NCBI RefSeq assembly: GCF_008298035.1
Contig: NZ_CP042910.1
Coordinates: forward strand, 5,595,001-5,659,000
DNA length: 64,000 bases
From: Gimesia maris
GTDB taxonomy: Bacteria; Planctomycetota; Planctomycetia; Planctomycetales; Planctomycetaceae
Reading direction: 5' to 3'
Under the pieces are notes generated by a model, which was not told the DNA's origin, made no database searches, and saw only the letters and a list, made by a program, of their open reading frames with translations. The stretch's first letter is position 1. Each line of letters starts with the position of its first letter. Of the stretch, positions 24,844-32,346 are shown one piece after another. Made by a program: the position numbers and the translations under genes.

Positions 24844-25231
24844 TTCAAAGAGCCAGCGAACCAGCCGATCAGCGCTCAACTCTCCCTGAAATTTCCAGCT
24901 CTATCCACGTTCGCCGCTGCGCACTCAGTCTAGCAAGTTTTGTGTTAAACGAAGTTTGTTAAGTTACTGTTATTGCAATCTTCATCCCAGATGATACACT
25001 CCCCCGATAGAGTTTTTTGAGTTTACCCAGCGTGTTTTCAGGCTGACGTTAGTGTCTCCAGGACAGTTCGAAATGATGAGAATTGTGCAAGCGACGCTCT
25101 CGTTTAATGAGATGCGTTTCGTATTTTTTGAGCATACAAGTTACGTGCTGACTGTTGCCCGGAATCAATTGAGGTTTTGAGGTTTTACATCAAGATTTAC
25201 AACGGCTAATTAATTGGAGTTAACTCTAAGG
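24844..25231. other. gene-free leader region of the pyrophosphatase gene
   Basis: 388 bases. Contains a promoter-like pair at 24973-25000, so the mRNA would have a leader of about 220 bases. No riboswitch class was recognised in it. Confidence 0.45.
24973..25000 (+). promoter_or_regulatory. sigma70-like promoter for the pyrophosphatase gene
   Basis: TTGCAA (24973-24978), a 16-base spacer, then TACACT (24995-25000). It is the best match in the gap, but alternatives nearer the gene cannot be excluded. Confidence 0.42.
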
Positions 25232-27844
25232 ATGAGGTTTAATCCCCGCGCTCGACTCACTCCCGTACGATTTTTCTCAACTCTCATCACCTCTAGTTTC
25301 GCCATTCTTTTATGCTCAGCCCCGCTGATGGCAGCAGAAGCTTCCACGGATCTGGCGATCGAAGCAGAAAACTCAACAGTCGTCATCAGCTGGTGCATTG
25401 CCATCGCAGGTGCCATGTTCGCTCTGTTCACAGCCTTTCGCTTTTTCTGCTGGATGGTCAACCAGAGTGAAGGCGATCCCACGATGCGAAAGATAGCCGA
25501 GCATGTCCGCGAAGGCGCTCGTGCGTATCTGGATCGTCAATTTAAAGTTGTAACCGTCTTTTTTGCCATCGTCTGTGCCCTGCTGGCGTTCATGGCCTTT
25601 GGTTTAAAAACACAGTCGCACTGGGTGCCATTCGCCTTCTTAACCGGAGGCTTCTTTTCTGCGCTGGCAGGCTGGTTCGGAATGCGGACCGCAACACTCG
25701 CCTCTGCCCGCACCGCCCATGCTGCCAAGGAATCATTGAACAGCGGTTTACAGGTCGCTTTTCGCAGTGGTGCGGTAATGGGTCTCGTGGTGGTCGGCCT
25801 GGGCCTGCTGGATATCACGCTCTGGTTTGGCGTCCTGCACTGGGTGGTGAAAATGCCTCTGGCAGAAATCACGGTCACGATGCTCTGCTTCGGAATGGGT
25901 GCCAGCAGCCAGGCACTGTTTGCTCGCGTAGGCGGTGGTATCTTTACCAAAGCGGCCGACGTTGGTGCCGACCTGGTTGGGAAAGTCGAAGCAGGCATTC
26001 CCGAAGACGATCCCCGTAACCCGGCGACAATCGCCGATAACGTGGGAGATAACGTCGGCGATGTCGCAGGTATGGGAGCCGACCTTTACGAATCTTATTG
26101 CGGGTCGATCCTTGCCAGTGGTGCACTGGGTGTAGCCGCCTATCATGGTTACCCTAAAATGCAGATGATGTGTCTGCTGTTGCCGATGTGCCTGGCTGGC
26201 GTGGGAATCTTCCTGTCCGTCACCGGAATTTTTATGGTCCGAACGGAAGAAGGAGCTTCACAGAAGAACCTGCTGAAAGCGCTGGCCAAGGGAATTGACA
26301 CCAGTGCATTCGGCGTGATTGTCGCGGCACTGGCTTTGGTCTGGATCATGCTGGTCATTCCTTCTCAGTCATCTGGAATACCCGCGGATTCTCCACTCCT
26401 GGTGGGTAACAGGCTGTTTGGTGTATTCGGCGCAATTGTCTGCGGACTGGTCTCCGGCTGGCTTATCGGCAAGTGGACCGAATACTCAACCAGTGATGAA
26501 TTTCGCCCGACCCGCTTTATCGCGGACCAGTCCTCCACTGGACCGGCAACGGTGATCATTGCGGGGATTGCAGAAGGTTTTTACAGCGTCTGGGTTCCGA
26601 TTGTCGTGATCGGCGTGGCGATCATCATGGCGTTTGGACTTTGTACCGGATTCGATTTTGCCAATTCACAAATCTTTGCGATGGGCCTCTATGGCGTCGC
26701 GATTGCTGCCGTCGGAATGTTGAGTACTCTGGGTGTGACGTTGGCAACGGATGCTTATGGCCCTATTGCTGACAACGCCGGTGGCAATGCGGAAATGAGC
26801 GGACAGGAACCCTACGTCCGACAGCGAACCGATGCCCTGGACAGCCTGGGAAATACCACTGCTGCCACCGGAAAAGGATTTGCCATCGGTTCTGCCGCTT
26901 TGACCGCGCTGGCCTTGCTGGCCGCGTATGTTGAGGAAGTTCGCGTCGGCTTTGAGCGATGGGTCGAACATTCAGCCATTGTGGAAACCATTTCAGATGA
27001 TATGACTAACGCTTCCGCACTAAAATTAAGCTCGAACTGTATTGCCTTACGGACTCCGGACAGGGATGGCCTGGAAGTGAAACATAACAACCAGGGATTC
27101 CTGCTGTTCCCTGCTTTGAATGTCGCTCAGATTACTCCAGGTCGGGAAAAAATCATGAGCGCAGAAGTCGGTTCGATCATTCGTGATCTGAATATTTCAG
27201 AACTGCTGGAACGGGGAGAATGCGTAGACGTCAAGACGGCAACGGTGCCCGACTTCTCCCGGTTTTATAATTTTTCCATCCTGAACCCGAAGGTACTGGT
27301 CGGGATCTTCTTTGGGGTAATGGTCGCCTTCGTCTTCTGTGCCATGACCATGAAAGCCGTGGGGCGGGCTGCAGGCGCGATGGTGGACGAAGTCCGTCGC
27401 CAGTTCCGGGAAATTACAGGTATCATGGAGAATAAGGCCGAACCGGATTACGCCGCCTGTGTCGAAATCAGTACGGCAGCGGCGCAACGGGAAATGATCC
27501 TGCCTGCGATGCTGGGTCTGCTTTCACCAGTCGTCGTGGGAGTCATCCTGGGTGTTCCCGGGGTCGTCGGACTGCTGGTGGGTGCCTTGACGAGCGGGTT
27601 TGCAGTTGCCATTATGATGGCTAATGCCGGTGGTGCCTGGGATAATGCGAAAAAGTACATTGAAGCAGGCGCTCATGGCGGCAAAGGAACTGATGCGCAC
27701 AAAGCCACAGTAGTCGGCGACACCGTTGGTGACCCCTTTAAGGACACCAGTGGCCCGAGTCTGAACATCCTGATCAAGCTGATGAGTATGGTTTCTGTTG
27801 TCATAGCCGGATTTATTATTCAATACGCACTTGAGTTATTTTAA
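25232..27844 (+). CDS. hppA: membrane-bound ion-translocating pyrophosphatase, K+-dependent type
   Basis: 870 residues from ATG 25232 (GGAG 12 bases upstream); a TTG at 25214 would add six. Hydrolyses pyrophosphate to pump H+ or Na+. The active-site loop [21 protein letters not shown] (starting ~243) and [20 protein letters not shown] are intact, as are [17 protein letters not shown] and [22 protein letters not shown] (~540-549) has Ala where K+-independent enzymes have Lys, so K+ activation is expected. Oddly, ~100 residues (~575-683) are inserted before the usual NPKVLVG helix. A possible signal or extra helix occupies ~12-36. H+ versus Na+ is not decidable by eye. Confidence 0.95.
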
Positions 27845-27923
27845 GTATTTGAAACAGGCTAGAGCGCGTCACATTTAACCATAGCGTCTCCCGATCGATG
27901 ATACTCGATCCAAATAGCCACGG

Positions 27924-27952
27924 AGATGCTACAGTAAAACTGGACACAGTCT
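27924..27952 (-). repeat. dispersed 29-base repeat, copy 2 (inverted)
   Basis: On the minus strand it reads AGACTGTGTCCAG then TTTTACTGTAGCATCT, 26 of 29 bases as in copy 1 (24278-24306). It ends immediately before the AAAGG ribosome-binding site of rsfS, and contains an ATG (27926) in the rsfS frame that is stopped three codons later. Confidence 0.7.
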
Positions 27953-27964
27953 AAAGGTCACAAA

Positions 27965-28366
27965 ATCAACACCGAACCTTCTCAACAATCTGATTCTATT
28001 GAAAGTGCGTCCAGCCTGGAACGTGCCTGCCTGTGTGCAAAAACCTGCGAGGACTTCAAAGGCAAAGACATCGTTGTACTGGATGTCGCTAAAATTACAC
28101 CTTTGTTTGACTACTTCATTATTGCAACCGCCACCAACCAGAGGCAGAGCAACGCGATTGCAGAGGAAATTCGCGTTCTGATGAAACGCGAGAGCACGCG
28201 CCGTCGTAACATTGAGGGTAAAGACAGTGAATGGATTCTGGGAGATTATGGGGACATTGTCCTGCATATTTTCACAGAAGAAGCCCGGGAACAGTATGAC
28301 CTCGAACGCCTCTGGGCTGACGCCAAAAAAGTGGACTGGCAGTCTTTCCGCACGGATTCCCACTGA
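27965..28366 (+). CDS. rsfS: ribosomal silencing factor RsfS, non-canonical start
   Basis: 133 residues if translation starts at ATC 27965. The conserved domain is complete: LERACLCAKTCEDFKGKDIV, VLDVAKITPLFDYFIIATAT, EGKDSEWILGDYGDIVLHIF and REQYDLERLW. RsfS binds ribosomal protein L14 and blocks subunit joining in starvation. The frame is open from 27938, but contains no ATG, GTG or TTG before TTG 28103, which would cut off half of the domain. AAAGG (27953-27957) sits seven bases before ATC 27965, making that the best start; ATT 27998 and CTG 28016 are alternatives. A sequencing error is possible. Next gene is argS. Confidence 0.88.
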   Translation: MNTEPSQQSDSIESASSLERACLCAKTCEDFKGKDIVVLDVAKITPLFDYFIIATATNQRQSNAIAEEIRVLMKRESTRRRNIEGKDSEWILGDYGDIVLHIFTEEAREQYDLERLWADAKKVDWQSFRTDSH

Positions 28367-28449
28367 CAGATCCGCTGTTTCTACCAATCTCAGCTCGCAG
28401 TCGGTATTCTGGGCGTAGAAGAATCTGTGTCCGTATCTTTCCAGTAGCC

Positions 28450-28486
28450 AAGGAGCCCGGCATCTCTGCCCCGGGCGTGTATAATG
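28450..28486 (+). promoter_or_regulatory. hairpin-bridged ribosome-binding site of argS
   Basis: AAGGAG (28450-28455) is 28 bases from ATG 28484, too far for a normal Shine-Dalgarno site. Between them GCCCGG (28455-28460) can pair with CCGGGC (28471-28476), loop 10 bases. With the hairpin formed, about seven bases separate the site from ATG. No other Shine-Dalgarno sequence precedes the start. Confidence 0.5.
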
Positions 28487-30448
28487 AATATTCTCGCAGA
28501 AATCAGAAGTCGATTTGAACCGGTCCTGACTGAATGGACAGATGATCCCTCTTCGGTGATCGAAATGCTGAAAGCATCGCAGGATGCAAAGTTTGGTGAC
28601 TACCAGGCGAATTTCGCCATGCCCCTGGCAGCCAGAATCCCCGATTTGAAACCACGCGACCTGGCAACACAGATCGTGGAAAAAGTCGATCTGTCCGATT
28701 TCTGCGAACCCCTGGAAGTCGCGGGCCCCGGCTTTATTAATATCAAACTCAAGCAGGAATGGTTGAACACTCAGACACAAAATCTGGTGGCAGACGAACG
28801 TCTGGGGGTTGTCCCTGCAGAATCGCCACAAAAGGTGGTCGTTGACTTTTCTGCCCCGAATGTCGCCAAGCCCATGCATGTGGGACATTTAAGAAGTACC
28901 GTGATCGGCGATGCCAATTATCGCGTCCTGAAATTCCTGGGACACGATGTGGTCGGCGACAATCATATCGGCGACTGGGGAACCCAGTTTGGTATGATTA
29001 TTTTCGGGTACAAGCATTTCCTGAACGAAGCCGCTTTTGAGGAAGCCCCGGTTACCGAACTGGCGCGACTGTATCGGCTCGTGAACCAACTCTCAGATTA
29101 CCATGCGACCAAAAAGACTCTGCCTCAGCGGGAAAACGACATTGAGCAACTGGAAGCGAAACTGAAAACGCTCGAAAGTTCCGCCGACCAGACGGATAAA
29201 AAAATCCAGAAGCAAGAGAAGAAGCTGAAGTCTGATATCGCAGAACGAAAATCTGATGTCAGATCAATGCAGGAAAAGCTGACGGAACTGGAACAGAACG
29301 AAGATCTGCACAGCAAAGCCGTCGCATTCCCTGATATCGCGCGACAGGCACGAGATGAAACAGCCAATCTGCATGCCGGAGATGCTGAAAATCTTGCACT
29401 CTGGAATCAGTTCCTACCCGCCTGCCTGGAAGCGATCCAGAACGTCTATGATCGACTCGATATTCACTTTGATATGGCACTGGGGGAAAGTTATTATCAC
29501 CCCATGCTGGCAGACGTCGTCGAAAGCCTGAAACAGAAGGGTCTCGCCAAAGAGAGCCAGGGCGCAATCTGCGTCTTTATCGATGGTTTCAAAGCCCCCT
29601 TCATCGTTCAGAAACAGGATGGTGCATTTACCTATGCGACTACGGACCTCGCCACGATTAAATATCGTGCAGAGGAACTGAAGGCAGACCGTGTGCTCTA
29701 TGTTGTCGACTCGCGACAAAGCGAACATTTTCAACTCCTGTTTGCCACCGTGAACGAATGGGGATTCCAGAACCTGGAACTGCAGCATGTCAGCTTTGGC
29801 TCGGTCCTGGGTAAAGATGGAAAGCCCCTGAAAACCCGCGCGGGAGACAATGTCGGCCTGGAAAGCCTGCTGGACGAATCGATCCAACGGGCTTATGCCA
29901 TCATCGCAGAAAATGACGACGCCAAGCCCGAAGGTTCTGAACTGAGTGAAGAAAGACGCCAGGAGATTGCTGAAATCATCGGCCTGGGTGGCATCAAATA
30001 CGCCGACCTGAAACACAACCGAGACAGCGACTACATGTTTGACTGGGATAAAATGCTGGCGAATCGCGGCGATACCGCAACCTACATGCAGTATGCCTAT
30101 GCCCGCGTGTGCGGCATTTTTCGCAAAGGGGAAATAGACCGCGTAACGCTGCGGGAGAATCAGTCTGCCCTCAAACTACAGGATGAGACAGAACGGGCAC
30201 TGGCGCTACAGATCAACCGCTATTCAGAAACCCTGGAGAGCGTCGCGATTGAAGCACGACCGAACTACCTGACCAACTACCTGTTCGAACTCTCGAACCT
30301 CTTCAGCACGTTTTACAACCAGTGCCCTGTGTTGAAAGCCGAAGAGGAACAAGTCAAATCCAGCCGACTCCTGCTCTGTGATTTAACGGCCCGGGTCATC
30401 GACCACGGCCTGTCCCTTCTGGGAATTCGAACCTGCGAGCGCATGTAA
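28484..30448 (+). CDS. argS: arginyl-tRNA synthetase with coiled-coil insertion
   Basis: 654 residues, about 75-100 longer than typical ArgS. Class I enzyme charging tRNA-Arg. The Add-1 N-terminal domain covers ~1-110. The HIGH motif is HVGH (132-135) within VAKPMHVGHLRST, and NHIGDWGTQFGM follows. As in many ArgS the KMSKS loop is replaced (DGKPLKTRAGDNVGL). A highly charged heptad-rich stretch at ~205-275 (QLEAKLKTLESSADQ, then KIQKQEKKLKSDIAERK) interrupts the catalytic domain and accounts for the extra length. C-terminal anticodon-binding helices end with SLLGIRTCERM. A terminator follows. Confidence 0.96.
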   Translation: MNILAEIRSRFEPVLTEWTDDPSSVIEMLKASQDAKFGDYQANFAMPLAARIPDLKPRDLATQIVEKVDLSDFCEPLEVAGPGFINIKLKQEWLNTQTQNLVADERLGVVPAESPQKVVVDFSAPNVAKPMHVGHLRSTVIGDANYRVLKFLGHDVVGDNHIGDWGTQFGMIIFGYKHFLNEAAFEEAPVTELARLYRLVNQLSDYHATKKTLPQRENDIEQLEAKLKTLESSADQTDKKIQKQEKKLKSDIAERKSDVRSMQEKLTELEQNEDLHSKAVAFPDIARQARDETANLHAGDAENLALWNQFLPACLEAIQNVYDRLDIHFDMALGESYYHPMLADVVESLKQKGLAKESQGAICVFIDGFKAPFIVQKQDGAFTYATTDLATIKYRAEELKADRVLYVVDSRQSEHFQLLFATVNEWGFQNLELQHVSFGSVLGKDGKPLKTRAGDNVGLESLLDESIQRAYAIIAENDDAKPEGSELSEERRQEIAEIIGLGGIKYADLKHNRDSDYMFDWDKMLANRGDTATYMQYAYARVCGIFRKGEIDRVTLRENQSALKLQDETERALALQINRYSETLESVAIEARPNYLTNYLFELSNLFSTFYNQCPVLKAEEEQVKSSRLLLCDLTARVIDHGLSLLGIRTCERM

Positions 30449-30807: not shown

Positions 30808-32133
30808 CTAATCGTTTCGCAGTTTGAGGTTCATCTCAGTCAGTTTTTCCCGAATTTCGTTGAGTGAGGTCACGCCGAAGTTACGGCTGGCCAGTAACTC
30901 ATCGGGGCTGCGACGCAACAGTTCGCCAATAGTTCCGATACCCAGACGGGACATGCATTTTCTTGAACGCACAGAAAGTCCCAGATCGGAAATTGGTTTC
31001 TCTGTGGCAGGGTTGTCTGCCAGTTCGGGAGGCAGAGCAGCGTAGCCGCCATCGGTTCCCAAAGACTCATGCAGGTTCTGACCGATATGCAGGCCAAATG
31101 ACGAAAGCATTTCGCGGATTTCATCGAGAGATGTCTGACCGAAGTTCTTACCAGCCAGCAGGTCATTTTCGCTGACGCGTGTCAGATCACCCAGGGTATG
31201 AATATCCATCGCATGCAGACAGTTGCGGCTGCGGACCGAAAGTTCGAAGTCGGTGACAGGACGATCCAGCAACTGCTTCATGCGGGCTTCGTTGCGGGCC
31301 GTCTCTTCATCGTAATACATGTTGTCAGCAGCTTCGATGTCCTTGAGGTACATCGCTGCCATTTCGTTTGTGGGATCTGCTTCCAGAATGCGGCGGAAAC
31401 AGAAAGCTGCAGCAGGATAGTTTTCCATATCCTCGTACAACAGTCCCAGATTCAGGATTGCTCCCAGGTAGAACGGCGGACTGGAGAGTGACTGCTCATA
31501 CAGGCGAATTGCATCTTCGTCGTTTCCACGAGAAGCGTTTTCACCAGCCAGGCGGAAAATCGCTCGTGAATGGCGAGGATCCATATCCACGGCACGTTCG
31601 AAGTATTCGATCGCGCCGTAAAGGTCACCGCGGTCTGAGCGAATGCATCCCATCTGGAAAGAATATTCAGCACGCCCGGCAGCATCCTTCGAAATCGTTC
31701 CCAATACCGATTCAGCATCATCCAGTTTCCCAACCAGACGCAGAGTTTCTGCTCTTCGCAGAGAACATTCAATGGAGTCATAACCCAGTTTGGCAGCCGC
31801 TTCCAGCTTCTGGTCTGCTTCAGCATATCGCTTCAGAGCAATCAGTGAAACGGCCTGATAAAAACAGGCCGTCGCGTTGTCTTGCACTTTTTCCAGTTGT
31901 GTGACTGCTTCTTTGTGTTTTCCCAGCAGATGCAGGGCGATCCCGGCACGGGCACTCAGTCCGGCTGAAGCCTGGCCTTCTGAAATACTTCGGATCAGCG
32001 CCTGCACTTCGTTGTTCAACTCTGAAACCTGGTCAGAGCAGACAATTTGTGACAATCGCTCTATGTCCGAGTAGCCTACACCTTCAGAGCTTTGCAACAC
32101 ACTTTTTACGTCAATTAATTCGTCGACACTCAC
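30808..32133 (-). CDS. TPR protein with two RNA polymerase alpha-CTD domains
   Basis: 441 residues from GTG 32133, chosen because AAGGA lies seven bases upstream; an in-frame TTG at 32178 would add 15 residues. Residues ~60-270 are TPR repeats (e.g. AEYSFQMGCIRSDRGDLYGA). Two copies of the RNA polymerase alpha C-terminal domain follow, ~287-352 (FELSVRSRNCLHAMDIHTLG, then NFGQTSLDEIREML) and ~379-441 (GLSVRSRKCMSRLGIGTIGE, then NFGVTSLNEIREKL). Arg265 and Gly296 of E. coli alpha are kept in both copies; Asn268 is Lys in the second and Lys298 is Thr in both. It may bind UP-element-like DNA or activators; role unknown. Confidence 0.9.
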   Translation of the reverse strand: MSVDELIDVKSVLQSSEGVGYSDIERLSQIVCSDQVSELNNEVQALIRSISEGQASAGLSARAGIALHLLGKHKEAVTQLEKVQDNATACFYQAVSLIALKRYAEADQKLEAAAKLGYDSIECSLRRAETLRLVGKLDDAESVLGTISKDAAGRAEYSFQMGCIRSDRGDLYGAIEYFERAVDMDPRHSRAIFRLAGENASRGNDEDAIRLYEQSLSSPPFYLGAILNLGLLYEDMENYPAAAFCFRRILEADPTNEMAAMYLKDIEAADNMYYDEETARNEARMKQLLDRPVTDFELSVRSRNCLHAMDIHTLGDLTRVSENDLLAGKNFGQTSLDEIREMLSSFGLHIGQNLHESLGTDGGYAALPPELADNPATEKPISDLGLSVRSRKCMSRLGIGTIGELLRRSPDELLASRNFGVTSLNEIREKLTEMNLKLRND

Positions 32134-32346
32134 ACTATTTTCCTTTATTGCAGCAGGCGCGCAGATGGAAGCAGACAATAGAGTTTATTCATACAAGCTA
32201 TTGCCAAAGTTCATAAACCCGAATCTTACAATCTGTTTAGGGAAACGGCAACCATTAAGGCCTGTTTCGCCTGTTTTCCGGCTGTCATGATGTACCTCAG
32301 CACTTCCAGACGCCAAAAACATATACACAAATACACATCCAGGCAA

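Follow-up and report, generated by a model that had tools for sequence, protein, structure and literature searches.

The window analysed here, a stretch of 64,000 nt from Gimesia maris, carries three consecutive plus-strand genes, of which the middle one, rsfS, appears to begin at an unusual codon. RsfS silences ribosomes by holding the two ribosome halves apart. The upstream gene is hppA (25214-27844; PF03030, 6.2e-262; frame counted from its first TTG), encoding an H+-translocating pyrophosphatase, while the downstream gene is argS (28484-30448; PF00750, 9.5e-106, with companion domains), encoding an arginyl-tRNA synthetase whose first codon is ATG. Adjoining argS, positions 30808-32178 of the minus strand encode TPR repeats together with two RNA polymerase alpha C-terminal domain stretches (PF03118), an odd combination. 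The rsfS frame spans 27938-28366 and comprises 142 open codons after an in-frame TAA (27935-27937), which itself lies within an inserted palindromic repeat. The coding sequence proposed here runs from AUC to TGA (27965-28366, plus strand) and would give a protein of 133 residues, Met plus 132. The translated open frame matches PF02410 at its residues 33-126 (1.9e-31; 108.6 bits against a curated cut-off of 21.6) and TIGR00090 at residues 32-126 (2.5e-31; 107.8 bits against 56.9), so the profile match starts at about 28031-28034; a helix that the relatives share begins slightly upstream, at about 28013. Its relatives in the PDB comprise 16 distinct sequences and include the RsfS structures 6sj5, 6sj6 and 4wcw. 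On these matches the protein can be placed in the RsfS/iojap family, and uL14 binding and a block of subunit joining are predicted for it. No Rfam match at the gathering threshold was found in 27500-28500, that is, no known RNA regulator.

The preliminary description of this DNA had stated that the rsfS frame holds no ATG, GTG or TTG from the stop at 27935 to position 28103, and that AAAGG precedes an ATC at 27965 by seven bases. Both statements are correct: the canonical codons are absent over that interval, and exactly seven bases separate AAAGG (27953-27957) from ATC (27965-27967). The predicted duplex of this Shine-Dalgarno (SD) sequence is weak, at about -3.5 kcal/mol. The first canonical codon, a TTG at 28103-28105, was considered as a start and rejected because it lies inside the conserved RsfS domain, where it would cost the profile match its first 23 or so residues. 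The window gene thus fits the class of near-cognate starts rejected by initiation factor 3 (IF3), as judged by a frame lacking a usable AUG, GUG or UUG and by a conserved, correctly spaced SD sequence.

Conservation within the genus points to the same codon. A normal start at this place in relatives had been named as the result that would contradict initiation at ATC, and none was found there: the codon is ATC in 16 of the 17 genus genomes and ATT in the remaining one (G007), in every case behind AAAGG or AGAGG. The strength of this SD sequence is -3.5 kcal/mol in 14 of the 17, -4.0 in one and -6.5 in two, the latter having AGAGG. No canonical codon lies between the upstream stop and the RsfS domain in 11 of these genomes. 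In five others an ATG lies in frame 14 codons after the AUC; this ATG has no SD sequence (+0.6 kcal/mol), the SD-AUC pair is retained in these genomes, and the ATG was rejected as a start. The last genome has a TTG directly after the upstream stop, likewise lacking an SD sequence. The reading frame is kept from the AUC onward, including in three genomes with a 9-nt deletion, and substitutions at codon positions 1, 2 and 3 number 182, 37 and 300 (pairwise counts over codons 2-14 in the 14 genus genomes of equal length). Upstream of the AUC, the genus alignment shows no such constraint: 1-nt indels occur, an A-run differing by one base, and the palindrome is inserted. On this comparison of sequences, the missing canonical start of rsfS is no mistake in the sequence and no peculiarity of a single genome, and initiation at AUC 27965, as originally proposed, is strongly supported by the genus and by the family-wide enrichment described below.

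The insert that separates hppA from the ribosome-binding site of rsfS is an imperfect palindrome of 94 bp (27861-27954), delimited by alignment and by its further copies. An insert of this kind, about 90 bp long, is found in the window and in one congener (G011), placed between CAGGCTA and AAAGG, while most relatives do not have the palindrome and carry an uninterrupted CAGGCTAAAGG or a similar sequence there. It puts an in-frame stop ahead of the window's rsfS and leaves the SD sequence and the AUC untouched. The distance from the hppA stop to the rsfS AUC is consequently 120 nt in the window, as against 20-29 nt to the AUC or AUU in the five insert-less congeners measured. In the window's genome, a span of 464 kb contains eight copies measuring 79 nt or longer, with TA or CTA on their flanks; copies were recorded at 27861-27954 of the window and at loci L158, L155, L159, L161, L165 and L209, and one further copy lies just upstream of infC, so that copies precede both rsfS and infC. 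None was found in 400 kb of the congener G009. The palindrome looks like a short non-autonomous mobile repeat.

Beyond the genus, rsfS was read in 151 family genomes out of the 158 that possess it, 134 of them outside the window's genus, and in-frame codons 12-45 before a conserved anchor were compared for a preceding SD sequence. The threshold for a strong SD sequence was -5.5 with a narrower window for the 151 genomes; an earlier survey of 102 loci (L097 dropped as a duplicate) had used -6 and a wider window, and AUC and AUU top the SD-preceded codons under both. In the 134 genomes, a strong SD sequence precedes in-frame ATC/ATT in 66 of 167 cases and the remaining codons in 253 of 4075 (p 4e-33, odds ratio 9.9). 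The corresponding count is 25/226 for canonical codons, and 4/101 and 5/117 for ATC/ATT in frames +1 and +2. These p-values treat codons as independent although the genomes are related; taking one genome per genus (29/67 for ATC/ATT vs 132/1648 for other codons, p 5e-14) lessens the effect of kinship but does not remove it. Counted by genome, a strong SD sequence stands before AUC/AUU alone in 52 of the 134, before a canonical codon alone in 14, before codons of both kinds in 7 and before neither in 61, and genomes of the AUC/AUU-alone type occur in 22 of 53 genera. The best site per genome yields 59 sites, 30 ATT and 29 ATC, with a spacing of 6-9 nt in 51 of the 57 that could be measured. A canonical rsfS start is not possible in 19 of the 151 genomes, 11 from the window's genus and 8 from elsewhere in the family (G029, G036, G109, G131, G138, G158, G168 and G187). 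All 19 have ATC or ATT after an SD-like sequence; this is strong in 10 of them, whereas the other 9, all from the window's genus, have a weak one (-3.5). Among the rsfS start signals detected in the family, an SD sequence followed by AUC or AUU is the most frequent, and the near-cognate start, read from these alignments, is widespread there but not universal.

A wider survey covered 90 rsfS genes of the phylum outside the family, namely the best 30 matches and 60 picked from the matches listed; the 60 were mostly one per family and chosen before their starts were seen, except for two from family f48 that were added on purpose. In 17 of the 90, no canonical codon occurs within 45 codons before position 6 of TIGR00090, and 14 of these 17, judged by eye, have ACG, ATA, ATT or ATC behind an SD sequence. 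The likely start by eye is ACG in five genomes of f48 (G336, G307, G238, G275 and G350) and two of f79 (G322 and G363), ATA in G207, G344 and G268, ATT or ATA in G203, and ATC in G315, G306 and G300. It is perhaps CTG in G329, and in the remaining two (G277 and G297) long open frames make its placement ambiguous. ACG behind an SD-like sequence was recorded at rsfS loci L300, L303, L304, L345 and L286 of f48 and L284 and L311 of f79. Conserved ACG starts in seven genomes of these two families are thus possible on this reading by eye.

Codon statistics outside the family are less one-sided. Strong SD sequences precede, in frame across the 90 loci, 10/23 ATA, 15/59 ATC, 16/65 ACG and 4/39 ATT codons, together with 11/35 GTG, 9/56 ATG and 5/37 TTG, as against 346/2590 for any codon. 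ATC and ATT alone are not clearly enriched in these 90 loci (19/98, p 0.06; 3/34 in the first 30 loci), and GTG is enriched too. Pooling ATC, ATT, ATA and ACG gives 45/186 (p 2e-5), with 21/198 and 11/146 in the other frames, for a set of codons that was chosen after the data had been seen. Because ATC and ATT by themselves are not enriched and the pool is post hoc, the case outside the family rests mainly on the 17 genes lacking a canonical codon. What recurs in the phylum is apparently the non-canonical nature of the start, whether AUC, AUU, AUA or ACG, and not one particular codon, and other lineages may well start rsfS at GTG or ATG. Two rsfS loci from other phyla (L047 and L048) have TTG/ATG codons in frame.

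The classic gene starting at a codon rejected by IF3 is infC. The preliminary description had likened rsfS to infC, and the likeness proves closer than it claimed, for infC of the same genus itself has ATC behind an SD sequence. In the 16 of 17 genus loci read (L089 was left out), infC begins ATC-GAA-ACA-ACG behind AAGGAGAA, with small spacer differences; some of these loci also have an in-frame TTG or GTG farther upstream. Across the Planctomycetota covered, the infC loci read (L077-L093, L194-L223 and L432-L458; in one set of 30 loci, 25 were read) often show ATC or ATT and perhaps ACG, with ATG in some (for example G093 and G029). The pairing of the two genes is loose: G029 combines ATG in infC with ATT in rsfS, and the f48 genomes read show ATT in infC and, in five genomes, ACG in rsfS. 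Judged from these readings, the two starts do not strictly co-vary.

Other genes serve as controls. A canonical start is absent from infC in 20 of 30 genomes, from frr in 0 of 29 and from hpf in 0 of 30, in a set picked for non-canonical-looking rsfS or for kinship with such genomes; the rate for rsfS there (25/30) is not that of a sample, because the genomes were chosen for their rsfS starts. Canonical codons were counted up to a limit that differed slightly from gene to gene, lying 6 residues inside the model for frr, 2 for hpf and 0 for infC; each of the 29 frr genes has, in addition, an ATG or GTG 15-18 codons ahead of the limit, and the hpf match of G375 is weak, under the family cut-off. 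In hpf/yfiA, GTG or TTG takes the place of ATG as the canonical codon closest to the domain in 24 of 30 planctomycete genomes (L459-L488). For frr of the family (30 loci), a strong SD sequence precedes 23/44 ATG codons as against 2/39 AUC/AUU codons in frame and 4/36 and 4/26 in the other frames; one locus (L328) is cut by a contig end, and the other 29 have ATG at or near the expected place. Additionally, a syntenic screen of about 400 kb of the window's genome against a congener yielded 199 ortholog pairs, 28 of which were flagged by a loose filter. Among these, rsfS alone had no credible canonical start, the 27 others being judged by eye; one flagged candidate (5821449-5821644, minus strand) is perhaps not a gene. 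On this screen, the lack of a canonical start in rsfS is more than chance. In these start tests rsfS behaves like infC and unlike frr or hpf.

The arrangement resembles several known systems. The infC start is ATT in E. coli and ATC in Streptomyces, according to extracts of PMC5472188, and rsfS shares with infC a near-cognate start behind an SD sequence, a product that is an anti-association factor and, in the window's own genus, the codon AUC. The two differ in that infC is under translational autocontrol, whereas rsfS is another gene; as no part in start-codon selection is known for RsfS, rsfS would be controlled by another factor. A closer parallel in this respect is sigR of Streptomyces, a non-infC gene governed by IF3 through a rare start, GTC, although it encodes a stress sigma factor and the IF3 effect, proven experimentally for sigR in the extracts of PMC5472188, is for rsfS a deduction. 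In S. aureus, extracts of PMC13009471 describe conserved non-canonical starts with SD sequences on cvfC1 (AUU) and ccpN (AUA), which yield less than AUG, and an AUA start on infC; cvfC1 and ccpN were discovered by profiling, whereas the rsfS start was read from sequence comparison. The name rsfS does not occur in the main text of that paper. E. coli pcnB, a different gene from rsfS whose product is poly(A) polymerase, is similar in its codon, being described in a paper title as a second chromosomal AUU start with low expression. The same gene, rsfS, has a weak start (UUG) in E. coli in the extracts of PMC10917681, but UUG is among the three starts accepted by IF3, and AUC, AUU, ACG and AUA are not. 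No report of a non-canonical rsfS start appeared in extracts of the literature matches listed on RsfS/iojap, Planctomycetes and non-canonical starts.

The explanation that we regard as likely is that rsfS translation begins at near-cognate codons of the kind normally rejected by IF3, which would place IF3 and RsfS under one control; both the use of the SD-near-cognate sites and the control by IF3 are what we infer from the comparisons above. AUC 27965 would be read by the ordinary initiator tRNA, and the product would begin Met-Asn-Thr-Glu-Pro-Ser-Gln-Gln. The near-cognate codon would make initiation on rsfS sensitive to IF3, as on infC, and since both genes keep weak start codons, both may be tuned by this factor. 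A shortage of free IF3 relative to 30S subunits would raise the translation of infC and rsfS alike, and RsfS, bound to the 50S subunit, would then reinforce IF3, bound to the 30S subunit, in preventing the subunits from joining prematurely; with ample IF3, RsfS would stay at a low level. This model is consistent with the extracts of PMC5472188, in which IF3 represses starts other than AUG, GUG and UUG and governs infC and sigR in this way, and in which a 3-15-fold effect is cited for mutants with weakened IF3. In extracts of PMC10158994, a survey of codon-anticodon pairs, IF3 tolerates nothing but Watson-Crick pairing at the first and second codon positions, so ACG, a codon that the paper does not mention, should be strongly rejected. 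IF3 and RsfS are both termed anti-association factors, and both are raised in an E. coli rimM mutant, in extracts of PMC13246957. For the wider proposal that across Planctomycetota rsfS and infC together make up a small regulon, based on start codons and sensed by IF3, with selection in many lineages keeping the rsfS start off AUG, GUG and UUG, our judgement is evenly balanced. In such a regulon the rsfS start would drift among AUC, AUU, AUA and lineage-conserved ACG, and the 50S-bound anti-association factor would be produced when the 30S-bound one runs short.

The main rival to control by IF3 accepts AUC as the true start and regards it as a fixed brake on the dosage of RsfS, the level of IF3 having no regulatory role in nature. 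Excess RsfS would stop translation, and the weak rsfS start could concern low dosage only, given the UUG of E. coli rsfS; taken with the GTG or TTG nearest hpf in 24 of 30 genomes, that codon suggests that low-efficiency starts are common in ribosome-inactivating factors. A brake, however, could be had from GUG, UUG or a poor SD sequence, whereas many lineages have no canonical codon and yet keep a good SD sequence, and hpf, likewise a silencer, has a canonical codon in all 30 genomes tested. We consider this account unlikely, if worth serious attention. Distinctly less probable is termination-reinitiation, by which 30S subunits arriving from hppA would use a near-cognate codon near its stop. 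The gap of 20-29 nt in the five insert-less congeners measured suits such coupling, but in the window the 94-bp hairpin widens the gap to 120 nt and adds a stop in the rsfS frame while the SD sequence and AUC stay intact. Initiation at a later near-cognate codon is very improbable: ATT 27998 and CTG 28016 are in frame and 5' of the RsfS domain, but neither has an SD sequence (+1.3 kcal/mol, or -0.7 with a wider window), the codons between them and the AUC evolve in frame, and ATT 27998 is GTC or ATC in some congeners. A sequencing error or pseudogene is scarcely credible, since 17 genomes, nine of them single-contig, share an AUC or AUU behind an SD sequence of the same type, and the domain is intact; the hidden ATG that the preliminary description had allowed for is refuted by these relatives.

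Few bacterial genes with start codons rejected by IF3 have been characterised, according to extracts of PMC5472188. With initiation from AUC, AUU or their kin, rsfS would be a second anti-association factor gene bearing the device of infC, conserved in the genus, common in the family and recurrent in the phylum. If true, the conservation of ACG as the start of a housekeeping gene in bacteria would be new as well. Gene callers restricted to ATG, GTG and TTG cannot position the starts of genes such as rsfS, and the regulation of RsfS becomes directly testable by a single codon change. The presence of the infC start device on rsfS suggests that in these bacteria the joining of ribosomal subunits may be balanced by start-codon discrimination.
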